A stretch of DNA of 32,487 bases, taken from NCBI GenBank assembly GCA_028277445.1, contig JANQGG010000007.1, positions 1 to 32,487 of the forward strand, read 5' to 3'. The notes below the pieces were generated by a model, which was not told the origin of the DNA, did no database searches, and worked only from the letters and a program-made list of their open reading frames with translations. Shown piece after piece: positions 27,421-32,442 of the stretch (position 1 is the first letter of the stretch; each line of letters opens with the position of its first letter). The position numbers and the translations under genes are program-made. Source of the stretch: Chloroherpetonaceae bacterium (GTDB lineage Bacteria; Bacteroidota; Chlorobiia; Chlorobiales; Chloroherpetonaceae).

Positions 27421-27639
27421 CTAGGCACTTTTAACTGAAAATGTGGTTAAATAAGTATTTGTGTGATCTGTTAGTGGAAATTCTTCTAAATATAGTTCAG
27501 TTGCTTCTTGTAGATTATGAATTGATTCTTCAATTGTGCTACCCTGACTCGAGGTACCAACATCCGAGCATTCAGCCACATATATTTCCTCACCAGTAGA
27601 AAGGTTTTCTTTATGGATTATAGCTATGAAAATTTTCAT
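27421..27639 (-). CDS. hicB: HicB-family antitoxin
   Basis: The 72-residue product has the partial RNase-H-like HicB fold: a beta-rich start (KIFIAIIHKENLSTGEEIYV), AECSDVGTSSQGSTIEESIH, and NLQEATELYLEEFP, all classical for the family. HicB neutralises HicA and represses the operon in most characterised systems. It lacks the C-terminal DNA-binding domain of longer HicB proteins, which is normal for this short class. It precedes the hicA frame on the same strand with no spacer. Confidence 0.85.
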   Translation of the reverse strand: MKIFIAIIHKENLSTGEEIYVAECSDVGTSSQGSTIEESIHNLQEATELYLEEFPLTDHTNTYLTTFSVKSA

Positions 27640-27799
27640 AACTTTAAAATTATCGCTAGTGATAAAATATTAATTTTTTAGGTTCTTTAATTTACCAAAC
27701 AGGTATTCAAATATATAATCAATAATCTAAAAATGAGCGGACTACTTCCTGGGAAACATCATGCCAGAAAACTTGCGCGGCATAAATGGTGATCAAAAA

Positions 27800-27974
27800 G
27801 CGTTTAAGTTCGGTTTTAAGACATTTATCGTATTTGGTTATTTTTGAAATGGTGATCGTAAATGGGATTGATTTCTACTTTGCAGGTTGTACTCTGGAAA
27901 AAATTGCGGAACTTATCGGGAAATTCAGGAAGTGTGTGGCGTTTCCTCTTAGGAGGGTCTTAGTAAAACCTAAC
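27800..27974 (+). repeat. Copy A of the coding-like island repeat
   Basis: Roughly 175 bp aligning by eye with 28601-28777 at about 80 percent identity. A plus-strand frame from ATG 27849 reads MVIVNGIDFYFAGCTLEKIA, then ELIGKFRK. Its right end is CTTAGGAGGGTCTTAG. It lies between hicB and the RelE-type toxin gene. The protein family is not recognised. Confidence 0.75.
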
Positions 27975-27975
27975 A

Positions 27976-28284
27976 CTATTTCGTTTTTTCTTTCCATATT
28001 TTTGGATCTCGCGATGTATTGATGACCGCTAAAACTTCAACACTACTGTTTTCTTCATCTGCATAAAAATGTACCATAAAAGGAAATTGATCTATAACCA
28101 AGCAACGAATTTCATTGTATCGAATATTATAAATTAGCGGGTTTGTTTTAAGTAGCTCGATTTTTTGGATGACGTGATTTTGAAACCTATCCCCAAGTCC
28201 TTTTTGTTGCTGATCATACCAGTCTTTACTTTGTTCTATGTCCAAAAGTGCACTCTCTGAAATTTTCAGCTTAAAGACTTTCAT
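27976..28284 (-). CDS. RelE/ParE-family toxin
   Basis: A 102-residue protein of the ParE/RelE fold: KISESALLDIEQSKDWYDQQ near the N-terminus, LGDRFQNHVIQKIELLKTNP, NEIRCLVIDQFPFMVHFYAD and VEVLAVINTSRDPKIW at the end. The tyrosine-arginine pattern fits ParE-type toxins (gyrase poisons) as well as RelE-type mRNases, so the target is open. Its ATG overlaps the stop of the antitoxin gene by four bases, the standard arrangement. Confidence 0.86.
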   Translation of the reverse strand: MKVFKLKISESALLDIEQSKDWYDQQQKGLGDRFQNHVIQKIELLKTNPLIYNIRYNEIRCLVIDQFPFMVHFYADEENSSVEVLAVINTSRDPKIWKEKTK

Positions 28285-28490
28285 GAGGCATTTAATTTTT
28301 GTTTAGCCTCTTCCCAATCTATTAGTTTTTCAGGATGCTTTCTAGCCTCTTTCAACCTGTTCAACACCAATTTCTTGTCTTCCTTTGTAATAAGTATATC
28401 TTCTTCATTAATACTGAAACCTAATTGTGAAACAAGCTCACAAAAAAACTCAATTCTATTTTCAGGGACTGCAACAACCACTTTTTGCAT
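28281..28490 (-). CDS. Antitoxin of the RelE/ParE pair
   Basis: A 69-residue protein ending ARKHPEKLIDWEEAKQKL, which is the toxin-wrapping helix typical of this antitoxin group. The N-terminal part (MQKVVVAVPENRIEFFCELV, SQLGFSINEEDI) is beta-alpha and probably serves in dimerisation or DNA binding. It precedes the toxin in the operon, so it should autoregulate. No operator could be singled out upstream. Confidence 0.8.
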   Translation of the reverse strand: MQKVVVAVPENRIEFFCELVSQLGFSINEEDILITKEDKKLVLNRLKEARKHPEKLIDWEEAKQKLNAS

Positions 28491-28600
28491 GATTAAACTC
28501 TTTCTTGATTTATTTAATGTGAACTATAACCAATATACCCAAGATAAAGATATATGGTTCAAATTTTTTTCAATCCAGTATCATCTTTGCCAACCTAGAT

Positions 28601-28777
28601 GCGGTTCAGTTTGGGTTTCAAATCAAGCAATCGTATTTAGTTATTTTTTAAATGGTGATCGTGAATGAGATTGGATTCTACTTTGCGCGTTGTACCCTGG
28701 AGAAAATTGCAGAACTTATCGGGAAATTCCGTAAGTGATTCTCGCTTCTTCCAAGGATGGTCTTAGGATTAGCCTAA
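28601..28777 (+). repeat. Copy B of the coding-like island repeat
   Basis: About 177 bp homologous to copy A (27800-27974). The plus-strand frame from ATG 28652 reads MVIVNEIGFYFARCTLEKIA, then ELIGKFRK and a TGA stop. Compared with copy A, at least six codon differences are synonymous, including AGG against CGT for Arg. The right end CTTCTTCCAAGGATGGTCTTAGG recurs at 30161. It lies between the RelE/ParE antitoxin gene and the DUF2442 gene. Confidence 0.78.
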
Positions 28778-28808
28778 ATCATTTTATCTTGTTATAAAAA
28801 CTCATAAT

Positions 28809-29105
28809 TTAAGGTTGTCTTTTCTCTAGCCATTTTTTCAAGGAATTTTGACTCTCTTTTGATCTTCTTCCTGCAATGATACCCTCGGCGCTAATATCTT
28901 CATCCAAATCCGGCCAATGAATTCCTTCGCCATCACCAATTAATTCATAATGATTTCGTTCAGCCTGGGTTGCGTGATACAAACGTGGGTACCAAGCCAG
29001 CGGGACGGTTATTGTTCTACCATCATCAAGTAAAACGGAAATTGAGTTTTCAAGAAAACAGACTTCCTGAATTGTGCATTGTTGTTCAATCGTTAAAGTA
29101 GTCAT
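28809..29105 (-). CDS. DUF2442 protein
   Basis: A 98-residue protein with the DUF2442 pattern: ISVLLDDGRTITVPLAWYPR, LYHATQAERNHYELIGDGEG, and IHWPDLDEDISAEGIIAGRR. The last stretch is diagnostic of the family. These proteins often sit beside DUF4160 proteins and are suspected to be toxin-antitoxin partners, but biochemical proof is lacking to my knowledge. The start overlaps the end of the DUF4160 gene by 20 bp, so the two are translationally coupled. Confidence 0.82.
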   Translation of the reverse strand: MTTLTIEQQCTIQEVCFLENSISVLLDDGRTITVPLAWYPRLYHATQAERNHYELIGDGEGIHWPDLDEDISAEGIIAGRRSKESQNSLKKWLEKRQP

Positions 29106-29322
29106 ACCATGCCTCCAAATATTTTTCTTTATTTTGTTCTATAATCTTTTGAATTTCCCTCAACTCTATATCACGAAAGAATTTTGATCTTTGTAAGATA
29201 ACAGGAGATAACCAAAACTTTGCAGTTGCTTTATCTTTTTTAACATGAACATGGGGTGGCTCAATTCCATTGGAAGAATAAAAGAAAAACCGATATGAAT
29301 TGATGATTTCAATTGTAGGCAT
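29086..29322 (-). CDS. DUF4160 protein
   Basis: A 78-residue protein with the family signature: MPTIEIINSYRFFFYSSNGI, then EPPHVHVKKDKATAKFWL (the HVHV motif), and a helical C-terminus IELREIQKIIEQNKEKYLEA. It is paired with DUF2442 as in many genomes and is presumed to be the other half of a toxin-antitoxin-like unit. Which partner is toxic is not known from sequence. It is 44 bp downstream of the VapB-like gene. Confidence 0.82.
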   Translation of the reverse strand: MPTIEIINSYRFFFYSSNGIEPPHVHVKKDKATAKFWLSPVILQRSKFFRDIELREIQKIIEQNKEKYLEAWYDYFND

Positions 29323-29366
29323 TTAGAGTATGTGCAGAATAATTAAGTAATGGTTTGTTTAATATA

Positions 29367-29555
29367 TTACCTTTCATTCATGTGATTTTGAAGTTCATTG
29401 ACCAAATCTTCCGGTAATTTCCCGGCATATTTATCAGATAACTTCTGTTTTGGCTCTTCACTTACTTTGAGAAGCTTAATCAATTGCAGATATTCTAAAT
29501 CCTCTAATAACCTGTATGCCTTTTTATTTGTGATTTGAACAACAATCGTTTCCAT
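29367..29555 (-). CDS. VapB-like antitoxin, orphan
   Basis: The ATG at 29555 gives 62 residues beginning METIVVQITNKKAYRLLEDL, then EYLQLIKLLK. This is clearly homologous to the product of the plus-strand gene at 29804 (MAQTIVVDIINEKAMKLLQD, LELLKLIRVHK). The longer upstream extension of the open frame lies over unrelated repeat sequence and is rejected. Such proteins accompany PIN-domain (VapC) toxins. No PIN gene follows here: the next gene is DUF4160, so this copy is an orphan or has changed partner. Confidence 0.72.
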   Translation of the reverse strand: METIVVQITNKKAYRLLEDLEYLQLIKLLKVSEEPKQKLSDKYAGKLPEDLVNELQNHMNER

Positions 29556-29659
29556 ACCTTTAAGATTTAAATTCATTTGTATAATACAATTACGATAACC
29601 GTGCAATTTTAGACATTTGGAAGCTGTTAATATACTGACACATATCTGATAACAGCACT

Positions 29660-29724
29660 CTAGTTCTATTTTTAGGACGACTTTAAAGAAGATCGCAGAG
29701 CTGATCGGGAAATTCAGGAGAGTA
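29660..29724 (+). repeat. Copy C, partial, of the coding-like repeat
   Basis: The plus-strand frame reads SIFRTTLKKIAELIGKFRR (core 29677-29718), matching FYFARCTLEKIAELIGKFRK of copy B. The nine codons for IAELIGKFR differ from copy A at four positions, all synonymous. It lies between the two divergent VapB-like genes. The sequence left and right of the core no longer aligns well. Confidence 0.65.
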
Positions 29725-29803
29725 GCAATCAATAACTTTGAAAAAATCCGTTTCGTATAAAGTTTGAATTAATAGTTATATTGATAAAAACAAACTTCCA
29801 ATT

Positions 29804-30010
29804 ATGGCTCAAACGATAGTCGTTGATATTATCAATGAAAAAGCGATGAAGCTTTTACAAGATCTGGAACTTCTAAAGCTGATCAGGGTTCATAAAAAAG
29901 ATGATCCCAAAACAGTGAATTATATAAAACGATATAAAGGTGCAATGTCAAAGCAACCTTTGCCTGATGTGGATTCCCAGCTTCAAGAACTCCGAAATTC
30001 ATGGGAATGA
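29804..30010 (+). CDS. VapB-like antitoxin of the broken PIN module
   Basis: A 68-residue protein starting MAQTIVVDIINEKAMKLLQD and ending LPDVDSQLQELRNSWE, a tail typical of antitoxins that wrap a PIN toxin. The stop overlaps the ATG of the following vapC frame by the ATGA arrangement. It is paralogous to the minus-strand gene at 29367-29555. The gene itself is intact though its toxin is not. Confidence 0.75.
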   Translation: MAQTIVVDIINEKAMKLLQDLELLKLIRVHKKDDPKTVNYIKRYKGAMSKQPLPDVDSQLQELRNSWE

Positions 30011-30193
30011 CGTATCTTTGGGACACAAACATTGTTATTTACTATCTTCAAAAGCAGTTACCTCAACAGGCTGAAACATTTATTGATGGCGTTTTAATGG
30101 ACTTTTCAGCCTTGCCTATCTGCAATTAATGAGATAGAACTACTTTGCTGGAAGAGTGCCACTTCCTCCGAGGATAGTCTTAGGTTTAGATAA
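30007..30193 (+). pseudogene. Truncated, frameshifted PIN-domain toxin (VapC-like)
   Basis: The frame starts MTYLWDTNIVIYYLQKQLPQ, and the DTN with following hydrophobics is the first acidic motif of PIN ribonucleases. After VLMDF the frame shifts: in the next frame it reads QPCLSAINEIELLCWKSAT, with the second acidic residue in INEIEL, then SSEDSLRFR and TAA at 30191. Removing one T from the TTTT at 30103-30106 joins them. The product would still be only about 61 residues against roughly 130 for the family, because the tail is replaced by a segment shared with copies A and B. The later PIN acidic residues are missing, so it should be inactive. Confidence 0.85.
30161..30188 (+). repeat. Copy D: right-end segment of the island repeat
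   Basis: ACTTCCTCCGAGGATAGTCT and the following TAGGTTTA align with 28747-28773 of copy B (CTTCTTCCAAGGATGGTCTT) and with the end of copy A. The left part of the repeat is absent, and the sequence to the left is the PIN gene. So the junction lies inside the toxin gene. Confidence 0.6.
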
Positions 30194-30212: not shown

Positions 30213-30737
30213 TCAAATAGCCTCACCATCAATATTATTTTTGCTAAAATTTTCTGTAAAATAAACACCAGAAGTATTAAAAAGATAACATCCAATTTCA
30301 GTTTGTTTTTTAAAATCTCCTCCGAGAACGATAAGAATCGGAGTGTCTGTAGCAACGTCTTGCGATTTGGCAAGCTCGGTTAGCGAGCGCTTATCTTGAT
30401 CACTTGGTTGTGTGCTTGATAGTGGGTGCGTATGCCACTCGCCGAGGTAGTAAATCTTTCCTTCAGATTTTCTGTATATCTCTGAAAGCTGTCTATCAAG
30501 GGAATCGGGTGGACGATAGAACTTTGTCCTTTTTCTTTTTGCACCTTTGATAGGCTCAAAAGCATCTGTTATGCAGGCCTTCATATCATGTTCACAGTAG
30601 TAGCCAACTAATGTTCCGCCAGTCTCATTTGGTATGGCTTTTATGGATAGGGTTTTAATCTTGCTCAAAACCGAATCGGGTAAATGAACTTCACCATTGT
30701 TCTCATCAAACCTCCATGTATGGTTTTTCTGATTCAT
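30213..30737 (-). CDS. JAMM/JAB metallopeptidase (Cap3-like deubiquitinase)
   Basis: A 174-residue zinc peptidase of the JAB/MPN family that removes ubiquitin-like conjugates. All JAMM ligands are visible: Glu38 in NETGGTLVG, His102 and His104 in EWHTHPLSSTQPSDQD, with Ser112 and Asp115. The length equals that of stand-alone bacterial JAB proteins such as Cap3. Its ATG overlaps the stop of the E2-E1 gene by four bases, so the two are coupled. In type II CBASS this enzyme cleaves what Cap2 conjugates. Here the partner proteins are not in view, so the role in defence is inferred from the pair. It ends 20 bp before the truncated vapC. Confidence 0.9.
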   Translation of the reverse strand: MNQKNHTWRFDENNGEVHLPDSVLSKIKTLSIKAIPNETGGTLVGYYCEHDMKACITDAFEPIKGAKRKRTKFYRPPDSLDRQLSEIYRKSEGKIYYLGEWHTHPLSSTQPSDQDKRSLTELAKSQDVATDTPILIVLGGDFKKQTEIGCYLFNTSGVYFTENFSKNNIDGEAI

Positions 30738-32359
30738 TTCAATATAACTTGGGACTCTATTTGGGTTTCAATTCCGAAGCGATCTATACGTTCAGCCTGT
30801 TTGTACAGGGTAATTACATCATTCGGGGCATCTTTTTCTATCCATGAGACCAATGTCGTTAGGAACGTATCGGCCATCATGCGAATCCTGTGGTAGGAAG
30901 CGTTAAAAGTGGGATGGTAGCATCCCGGTTCCGGCCATACTATTGATCCTTCTTTTTCATCGGATTTGTGATACTGGTCAAGAATATACTTTCTGAGCAT
31001 ACCAAAGAGCTTAGCTTGTAGCTCAGCAAAAGTTCTTTGTGAAATTTCCTGTCTTAGTCCTAAAACCCCAAAATCCGGGCCGGGTTTGATAAAGCACCAC
31101 GCTATTTTCTTAGTGAGTAATTCAGACGATGACGAGAGTCTTTCATGTATGGCCTTGTTTGCAGTGGCATCGATGATAAGGTCATAGTCGGAAAGGGTTT
31201 TTACCAGTTCATCCCAATCAGTAAGAATGTTCTCTTTAAAAGGAGGAACCATTTGTATGCTTGAGTTGATAGCAAGAAGCTGCCACGCCATACTTACAGC
31301 TTTATTCATTCCTACAGTGTTTGTTAATGCTTCATGCCGGATTAGGTTTCCGGGTTCTACATTTTGACTATCAGCCAGAAAAAGCTTTACGGGGGCAAGT
31401 TTGGAAACAGATTTTGCCAACACTGAACCAATAGCACCCACTCCAAGAATAGCTATTTTCAAGTCTTCAAAACTCTTCATATCAGCTTTGCCTCTAACAA
31501 GGAGTGCCTCTTTTGATAAATCGGTGCATGTACCCCATTTTAGATGATGGTTTTTCTTAATCAGACTTTTCACGCCTGGTAGATTAATTAGGGGGGTATT
31601 AGGTCGAAACCCTTTCCGATTAAATATATTCTTGGTTACACCATTAAGTTCAGATGCTAACCATACTATGCTGTTTGCGTCCCCTTCCCATTTTTCTGGT
31701 ACAGAAAAAGCAAGAAGGACAAAATGCTTTTGACTTTTAATCCTCAAACATTCATCTAATGCTATGAGTATTTTATTCTGATTTTCCTGTGAAAAATCAC
31801 TCCATGTTACATATGGACGATGAGGCTTTTCAACAACAGGGTTTCCTATGAATACCCAAGGAACTGTGCTTCCGTTAACTTCACTGCCAAAAGTATCCAT
31901 ATGAATATCAGGCCTCCAGTATTTTGATTCATCTCTTTGGCTAATCCCTCGTAATGATTTAATTATGAAGCGTTTTCGCTCAACAAATGAACTATTTATC
32001 TCTTCTATCCATGCGATACCATGACTGTTTTCCCTAATCCAGTCAAATATTTTAGAGCCTCCTTCAATAAAGATTTCTGAACGAGATTCCGGTGCAATAT
32101 GAGGGAACTCATATCGCTCGTCAGGATTTGTAAGTTTGCCAATGCGTGCATTAGAAATCCACTTGTAGGCATAATCTATGTATGGGATTAAGAGGCGGCT
32201 TCTTTCTTCTGCAATCTTATCGGGATTAGGAGGACATATAATGTTCGAGTGCCATGAATTCCAGTCTCCGTTTTGGTGTGAATACCATTTGAGTTCCGGT
32301 TCGAGTGGAATTGTCTGAACAGGCATGTATGGAAAAGATTTCGGAATCAGAAACTTCAC
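30734..32359 (-). CDS. E2-E1 fusion, ThiF-type ubiquitin-like conjugating enzyme (Cap2-like)
   Basis: The C-terminal half (about 298-541) is a ThiF/E1 adenylation domain: GVGAIG at 306-311, Asp330, NLIRHEAL with Arg341, Lys353 in GMNKA, and IIDAT at 395-399. Cys422 (AWCFIKPG) and Cys480 (PGCYHPTF) are candidate thioester cysteines. The N-terminus looks like an E2 core: IPKSFPYMPVQTIP, then SNIICPP with Cys42 as the candidate catalytic residue, and IDYAYKWI. This matches Cap2 of type II CBASS in order. The listed start is a GTG (32359) without a good ribosome site. The frame stays open upstream to 32440 and reads E2-like (SGEPHSCYKVKF), so the N-terminus seems to be missing or frameshifted. 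About 60-70 residues are lacking compared with Cap2 as I recall it. Confidence 0.83.
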   Translation of the reverse strand: MKFLIPKSFPYMPVQTIPLEPELKWYSHQNGDWNSWHSNIICPPNPDKIAEERSRLLIPYIDYAYKWISNARIGKLTNPDERYEFPHIAPESRSEIFIEGGSKIFDWIRENSHGIAWIEEINSSFVERKRFIIKSLRGISQRDESKYWRPDIHMDTFGSEVNGSTVPWVFIGNPVVEKPHRPYVTWSDFSQENQNKILIALDECLRIKSQKHFVLLAFSVPEKWEGDANSIVWLASELNGVTKNIFNRKGFRPNTPLINLPGVKSLIKKNHHLKWGTCTDLSKEALLVRGKADMKSFEDLKIAILGVGAIGSVLAKSVSKLAPVKLFLADSQNVEPGNLIRHEALTNTVGMNKAVSMAWQLLAINSSIQMVPPFKENILTDWDELVKTLSDYDLIIDATANKAIHERLSSSSELLTKKIAWCFIKPGPDFGVLGLRQEISQRTFAELQAKLFGMLRKYILDQYHKSDEKEGSIVWPEPGCYHPTFNASYHRIRMMADTFLTTLVSWIEKDAPNDVITLYKQAERIDRFGIETQIESQVILK

Positions 32360-32442
32360 CTTGTAGCATGAATGTGGCTCCCCTGAGATAATGGCACTAA
32401 CATAACAAATAAAATGGTATCTTAGAGAAAAACTAAGGTATT

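Follow-up and report, generated by a model that had tools for sequence, protein, structure and literature searches.

The E2-E1 and JAB genes near the end of the window, which is the complete contig C45 of the assembly (32,487 bp), very probably belong to a relative of the 6A-MBL system. Our favored reading is that an IS has interrupted the operon of a divergent 6A-MBL-type system with split genes, that the two genes are the distal part of this operon, and that the system works by the mechanism proposed below; we regard this combined reading as likely. The locus represents a deep branch of the 6A-MBL type, in which E2-E1 and JAB are encoded separately and control would lie with capH/capP. Across the IS, the full operon runs in the order capH-like HTH gene, capP-like peptidase gene, membrane protein gene, metallo-beta-lactamase (MBL) fold gene, E2-E1 gene and JAB gene, with the upstream half located on contig C7 (Table 1).

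Table 1. Coordinates of the operon and of the IS ends; positions without a contig name are those of the window, and the operon genes of C7 lie in locus L029.
Feature	Coordinates	Strand	Basis
JAB/JAMM isopeptidase gene, Cap3-like, intact, 174 aa	30213..30737	(-)	Prok-JAB, PADLOC JAB, motifs, PDB match
E2-E1 (Cap2-like) gene, 3' part, codons 54-604 of 604	30734..32388	(-)	Pfam, PADLOC, alignment, AlphaFold2 model
10-bp target-site duplication TCCCCTGAGA, reverse complement TCTCAGGGGA	32379..32388		repeated at C7:100-109
Left IS end, inverted repeat TAATGGCACTAAC..., to contig end	32389..32487	(+)	end recurs in assembly
Right IS end	C7:1-99		contig-end comparison
E2-E1 gene, codons 1-53	C7:109-269	(-)	empty-site reading
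MBL-fold gene, 371 aa	C7:259-1374	(-)	Lactamase_B, NF058524
Membrane protein gene, 227 aa	C7:1349-2032	(-)	homologue in L189
capP-like M78 peptidase gene, HEIGH motif	C7:2084-2698	(-)	PADLOC capP 77 bits
capH-like HTH gene	C7:2703-3011	(-)	PADLOC capH 34 bits

The conjugation gene pair and its interruption

The ThiF/E1-containing frame and the JAB gene overlap by ATGA on the minus strand of the window. The JAB product was recognized by the Pfam family Prok-JAB (46 bits, E=5e-12) and matched best the Cap3-type JAB model of PADLOC (132 bits). Its residue E38 and the HxHx7SxxD motif (HTHPLSSTQPSDQD) are kept, and the peptidase of PDB entry 9ild is a structural-database match (E=9e-10). For the E2-E1 protein, Pfam identified ThiF in the E1 part (59 bits) and PADLOC placed Cap2-type E1-E2 models of CBASS first, at 174 bits versus at most 44 bits for the ThiF/MoeB equivalog models. 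When the gene is read across the empty site, the nucleotide-binding site of E1, the E2 cysteine (residue 105 in the 604-codon numbering) and the E1 cysteine (residue 543) all align with Cap2 proteins. Furthermore, an AlphaFold2 model of the protein (pTM 0.60, with an E2 part of low confidence, pLDDT about 40-75) found Cap2-CdnD02 as its best PDB match (7to3, E=9e-19, over 575 columns).

Since the best PADLOC matches are a Cap2-type E1-E2 and a Cap3-type JAB, the pair is neither a chance association nor a MoeB/ThiF locus. A biosynthetic MoeB/ThiF enzyme is ruled out by the scores of the Cap2 models, the aligned E2 cysteine and the structural match to Cap2. The original prediction of an overlapping E2-E1 and JAMM pair that encodes a Cap2/Cap3-related conjugation and deconjugation module therefore holds, the comparison of the fusion with Cap2 that it called for gave the match described above, and the ThiF/MoeB enzyme without an E2 half that it had named as evidence to the contrary was not what we found. 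Phage records gave no match, and neither did genome contigs scanned with the E2-E1 fragment as a single query. We examined two further JAB genes of the same genome (C15:46176-48407, L005:8156-13018) as possible partners but rejected them, since they are sited in an apparent cluster for cysteine/sulfur-carrier biosynthesis that includes a MoeB-rhodanese fusion and are unrelated to the operon.

The GTG at 32359 had been taken as the start of E2-E1. Alignment to the PADLOC model indicated that the frame lacks about 50 or more residues ahead of this codon, and the frame in the window is therefore incomplete. Contigs of this assembly overlap by 99 bp, and the ends of all 70 were compared. The last 99 bp of C45 occur a second time in the assembly, at the C33 end, and hold from 32443 the first codons of an ORF, MKSNRSLAISTTIQE, which is presumably the transposase of the IS and is oriented opposite to E2-E1. 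The other end of the IS, TAATGGTGCTAAC, is common to the start of C7 and the end of C43 and matches TAATGGCACTAAC. The genome thus contains two copies of the IS, each with its own 10-bp duplication, TCTCAGGGGA at C45/C7 and CTCTTGGATG where the ends of C33 and C43 meet (L008:8992-9090). These duplications pair the C45-C7 and C33-C43 junctions unambiguously; the body of the IS was not found in the assembly. At the other end of the window, positions 1-99 overlap the end of contig C2 by 99 bp, so that the contig can be extended there.

Removal of the IS and one copy of the duplication yields an E2-E1 frame of 604 codons with no stop. The frame starts at ATGGACGGTAA, where its ATG overlaps the stop of the upstream MBL gene. 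Insertion occurred after codon 53, ahead of both C105 and C543, and the GTG is thus not the start of the gene. The copy of the E2 domain in the window lacks its N-terminal 53 residues, and conjugation has therefore probably been lost in this strain, where the operon is probably inactive. The other genes of the operon are intact, which suggests that the insertion is recent.

The neighborhood of the JAB gene is a toxin-antitoxin cluster (27421-30130), as predicted, with ParE and DUF2442/DUF4160 recognized by Pfam. It comprises a weak HicB-like gene, ParE and its antitoxin, the DUF2442/DUF4160 pair, a small antitoxin-like ORF and a frameshifted vapC-like remnant. The ruined vapC reported beside the JAB gene can be followed by eye (MTYLWDTNIVIYYL..., then a frameshift), but Pfam does not recognize the remnant.

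The upstream genes and their place among known systems

The genes on C7 lie on one strand with close spacing. The MBL protein matched Lactamase_B in Pfam and scored 108 bits against NF058524, the 6A-MBL enzyme (cut-off 220 bits), while E2-E1 and JAB scored 109 and 98 bits, respectively, against NF058523 (cap2_3, cut-off 320 bits). All of these scores fall below the curated NCBIfam cut-offs, and we therefore describe the locus as a relative of 6A-MBL and not as a certified member. A homologue of the membrane protein occurs in L189, an intact operon from Bacteroidia (blastp 2e-13); plasmids searched with the membrane protein of C7 gave no match.

The system to which we compare the locus was described as operon 6a, in which a triple E2-E1-JAB protein adjoins a metallo-beta-lactamase (Iyer et al. 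2006, PMC1779556). Similarly, the present operon has a homologous MBL gene directly upstream of E2-E1 and overlapping it, a JAB gene, an MBL tail with a glycine end and a membrane-type accessory gene. It differs in that E2-E1 and JAB are two genes joined by the ATGA overlap instead of one polypeptide, in that both cut-offs were missed and the operon is interrupted by an IS, and in that its MBL sits with L153 on a deep, separate branch, which is fully supported and stands apart from the other 90 proteins of the MBL tree. L153 is also the nearest relative of the MBL, at 45% identity, and its operon contains an E2-like gene. The literature searched states no substrate for the 6a operon, known since 2006, and yielded no paper on the mechanism of 6A-MBL or on an MBL in ubiquitin-like conjugation; further papers may exist, because NCBIfam already names the system anti-phage.

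The earlier proposal offered a stand-alone pair or half of a CBASS operon. Neither describes the locus, as MBL, membrane protein and capP/capH-like genes lie upstream across the IS. The lack of an effector downstream of the JAB gene, which had been used as an argument, carries no weight since the cyclase and effector of related type II CBASS operons sit upstream of cap2. An ordinary type II CBASS would demand that the CD-NTase and effector be elsewhere or missing from the assembly. Such an origin would fit the best structural match of E2-E1, which is Cap2, the CBASS-like arrangement of E2-E1 and JAB as separate genes, and the best plasmid matches of E2-E1, which are CBASS Cap2 genes adjoining SMODS cyclases and SAVED effectors. 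However, where a CD-NTase had been one possibility beyond the window, C7 carries the MBL and membrane protein genes directly upstream, and neither a SMODS cyclase nor a SAVED protein has a match in this 99%-complete genome. Additionally, the E1 tree places the E1 of this operon on a long branch outside the clade of CBASS and multi-ubiquitin systems (100/100), with its exact place unsure and only five CBASS rows in the tree. The C45/C7 junction thus largely refutes the CBASS alternative, which we consider extremely improbable.

Comparison with type II CBASS (Cap2/Cap3; Jenson 2023; 7to3, 7tsq) nonetheless reveals a shared plan: an E2-E1 with both cysteines, a separate Cap3-like JAB, an upstream partner gene with a special C-terminal residue, and membrane-directed effectors. 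The differences are the MBL-fold protein in the place of the CD-NTase, the absence of SAVED and the position of the E1 outside the CBASS clade. The CapH/CapP control module is described as DNA-damage-responsive (PMC13373217). A similar arrangement occurs here, where an HTH gene precedes one for an M78 peptidase with HEIGH and the two adjoin the immune genes on the upstream side; in this case the module is attached to an MBL operon and its role is predicted. An operon on the Aeromonas salmonicida plasmid pBY3 (L139) also combines an MBL, an E2-E1, a separate JAB and a small membrane protein, but its membrane protein gene is last instead of first, its MBL ends in ...AYA and the identity of the MBL proteins is only about 25%. 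Unlike Bil and Bub operons, the C7/C45 operon, read from capH through JAB, has no recognized gene for a ubiquitin-like protein.

The C-terminal glycine of the MBL and the proposed mechanism

Relatives were collected by an alignment scan of genome contigs with the MBL, from which 80 of 171 matched loci were taken in, and by adding loci from plasmids, IMG/VR and genomes of the phylum. With L153 left out, 85 of 89 distinct MBL tails have [YFHQA]G at the end or before a tail of 1-5 residues, and in 41 of the 89 the motif is the very end; these relatives are not independent of each other. In the background, which consists of 794 further ORFs from these loci with some spurious ones among them, the motif occurs within the last seven residues in about 10% and at the very end in 1.4%. 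The MBL of this operon ends in SEYG-R, with its glycine one residue before the end. Sister proteins vary mainly after the glycine, as in STYG and STYG-NGEV, HTYG and HTYG-RP, or PHFYG and PHYYG-QRF. Exceptions to the motif are two MBL proteins that end in YA, one truncated ORF and L211. The motif is absent from the MBL proteins of L153 and L211, whose operons both have an E2-like gene but no recognized E1; L175, which also has only an E2-like gene, keeps the motif and is a counter-example.

Ubiquitin precursors carry a short tail that is trimmed after a glycine. Cyclases adjoining the related CBASS E2-E1 genes end in GRFA, and the terminal residue of the CBASS cyclase is the one that is conjugated (Jenson 2023, PMC10097602). 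From the position of the glycine, the varying tails and this CBASS precedent, we infer that the MBL could be the conjugated partner and that its tail could be trimmed by JAB. Conjugation of the MBL by E2-E1, judged from these sequences, has in our estimate an even chance of being correct. The tail comparison also offers a candidate substrate for the 6a operon, namely the MBL protein, whose glycine and trimmed tail would resemble those of ubiquitin precursors.

The steps that we infer run from induction through capH/capP and trimming of the tail to conjugation, licensing of the effector and cell death. The capH- and capP-like proteins would keep the system silent until DNA damage or infection occurs. 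The MBL, predicted to be a metal-dependent hydrolase whose C-terminal tail is disordered, would replace the CD-NTase of type II CBASS, and JAB would remove the short tail after its conserved glycine (EYG-R here). E1 would then adenylate the glycine, and the MBL would be handed via the E1 and E2 cysteines to a target, with JAB also able to undo the conjugation. Conjugated or activated MBL may license a membrane effector, which would be the membrane protein in this operon and a patatin phospholipase elsewhere, and the licensed effector would kill or arrest the infected cell. For 6A-MBL-type systems as a whole, we consider it about equally probable that this holds or fails, namely that the MBL-fold enzyme is a ubiquitin-like modifier that is matured by JAB at the glycine, conjugated by E2-E1 and in control of a membrane-killing effector. 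Should this hold, bacterial immunity uses folded enzymes other than CD-NTases as ubiquitin-like modifiers, and killing is likely to be carried out by the patatin or membrane protein.

Alternatively, the MBL may be only an effector or sensor enzyme, such as a nuclease or phosphodiesterase, with E2-E1 and JAB serving an unlinked ubiquitin-like protein or modifying the MBL otherwise, and with another role for the glycine. Its metal motifs are kept (HGDQDH, D201, H234/H235), and its distant matches are defence MBLs such as Avs1a, LmuA and RTasMBL. The model of the L153 protein likewise has an MBL fold, with a low-confidence tail from residue 322, and resembles in fold the hydrolases of the Pce, CPSF, RNase J and RNase Z kinds. 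These features are consistent with a purely enzymatic role, yet no ubiquitin-like protein was recognized among the neighbors in the operon, and tails with the glycine motif occur in all major MBL clades that carry E2-E1 and JAB (apart from two tails ending in YA), with trailing residues that vary. We therefore regard this alternative as unlikely, with conjugation of the MBL as the preferred reading.

Candidate effectors, distribution and role

The organization of the 96 loci with a good MBL links the MBL to conjugation enzymes and, in some cases, to a phospholipase. An E2-E1-JAB fusion adjoins the MBL in 68 loci, an E2-E1-JAB-patatin fusion is present in 13, and in two the E2-E1 ORF does not include JAB; seven loci are cut off by the end of the available sequence, and no E2-E1 was found in the remaining six. 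The patatin glycine-rich motif follows JAB in 13 of 13 longer fusions, and the two scanned with Pfam read E2_A-ThiF-JAB-Patatin. Such four-domain fusions of 1131-1181 aa, which physically tie a phospholipase effector to the conjugation enzymes, lie downstream of the MBL in L157, L182, L183, L185, L190, L194, L196, L199, L201, L202, L203, L207 and L228. The downstream genes (n=62) include 15 of one patatin cluster and about 25 small proteins with at least two membrane segments predicted by simple hydropathy, compared to 7% of background ORFs. The membrane gene is upstream in the operons of some relatives, as it is in the C7/C45 operon.

A lone E2-like gene, with no recognized E1 or JAB, is found in three MBL operons (L153:7995-10768, L211:7998-10252 and L175:275-2114). 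Pfam gave these genes no name and they were judged E2-like by reading their sequences; the gene that follows encodes a patatin in L153 and a membrane protein in L211.

The role of the operon is probably defence. A regulatory or housekeeping role would agree with reports of related Bub operons without shown phage protection (PMC13373217). Against it are the capH/capP-type control, the patatin or membrane proteins, which are CBASS-like, the anti-phage name that NCBIfam gives the related system, and the plasmid-borne relatives, which include an intact operon of Fibrella. Furthermore, the distribution is patchy, at 9 of 394 genomes of the phylum and with no relative in the 60 close-relative genomes searched. 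A role outside defence is thus very unlikely.

Two loci of the same phylum, L020 (8780-9247) and L022 (9558-10298), encode multi-ubiquitin-like proteins adjoining E2-E1 genes, and these proteins end in FA like CBASS cyclases.
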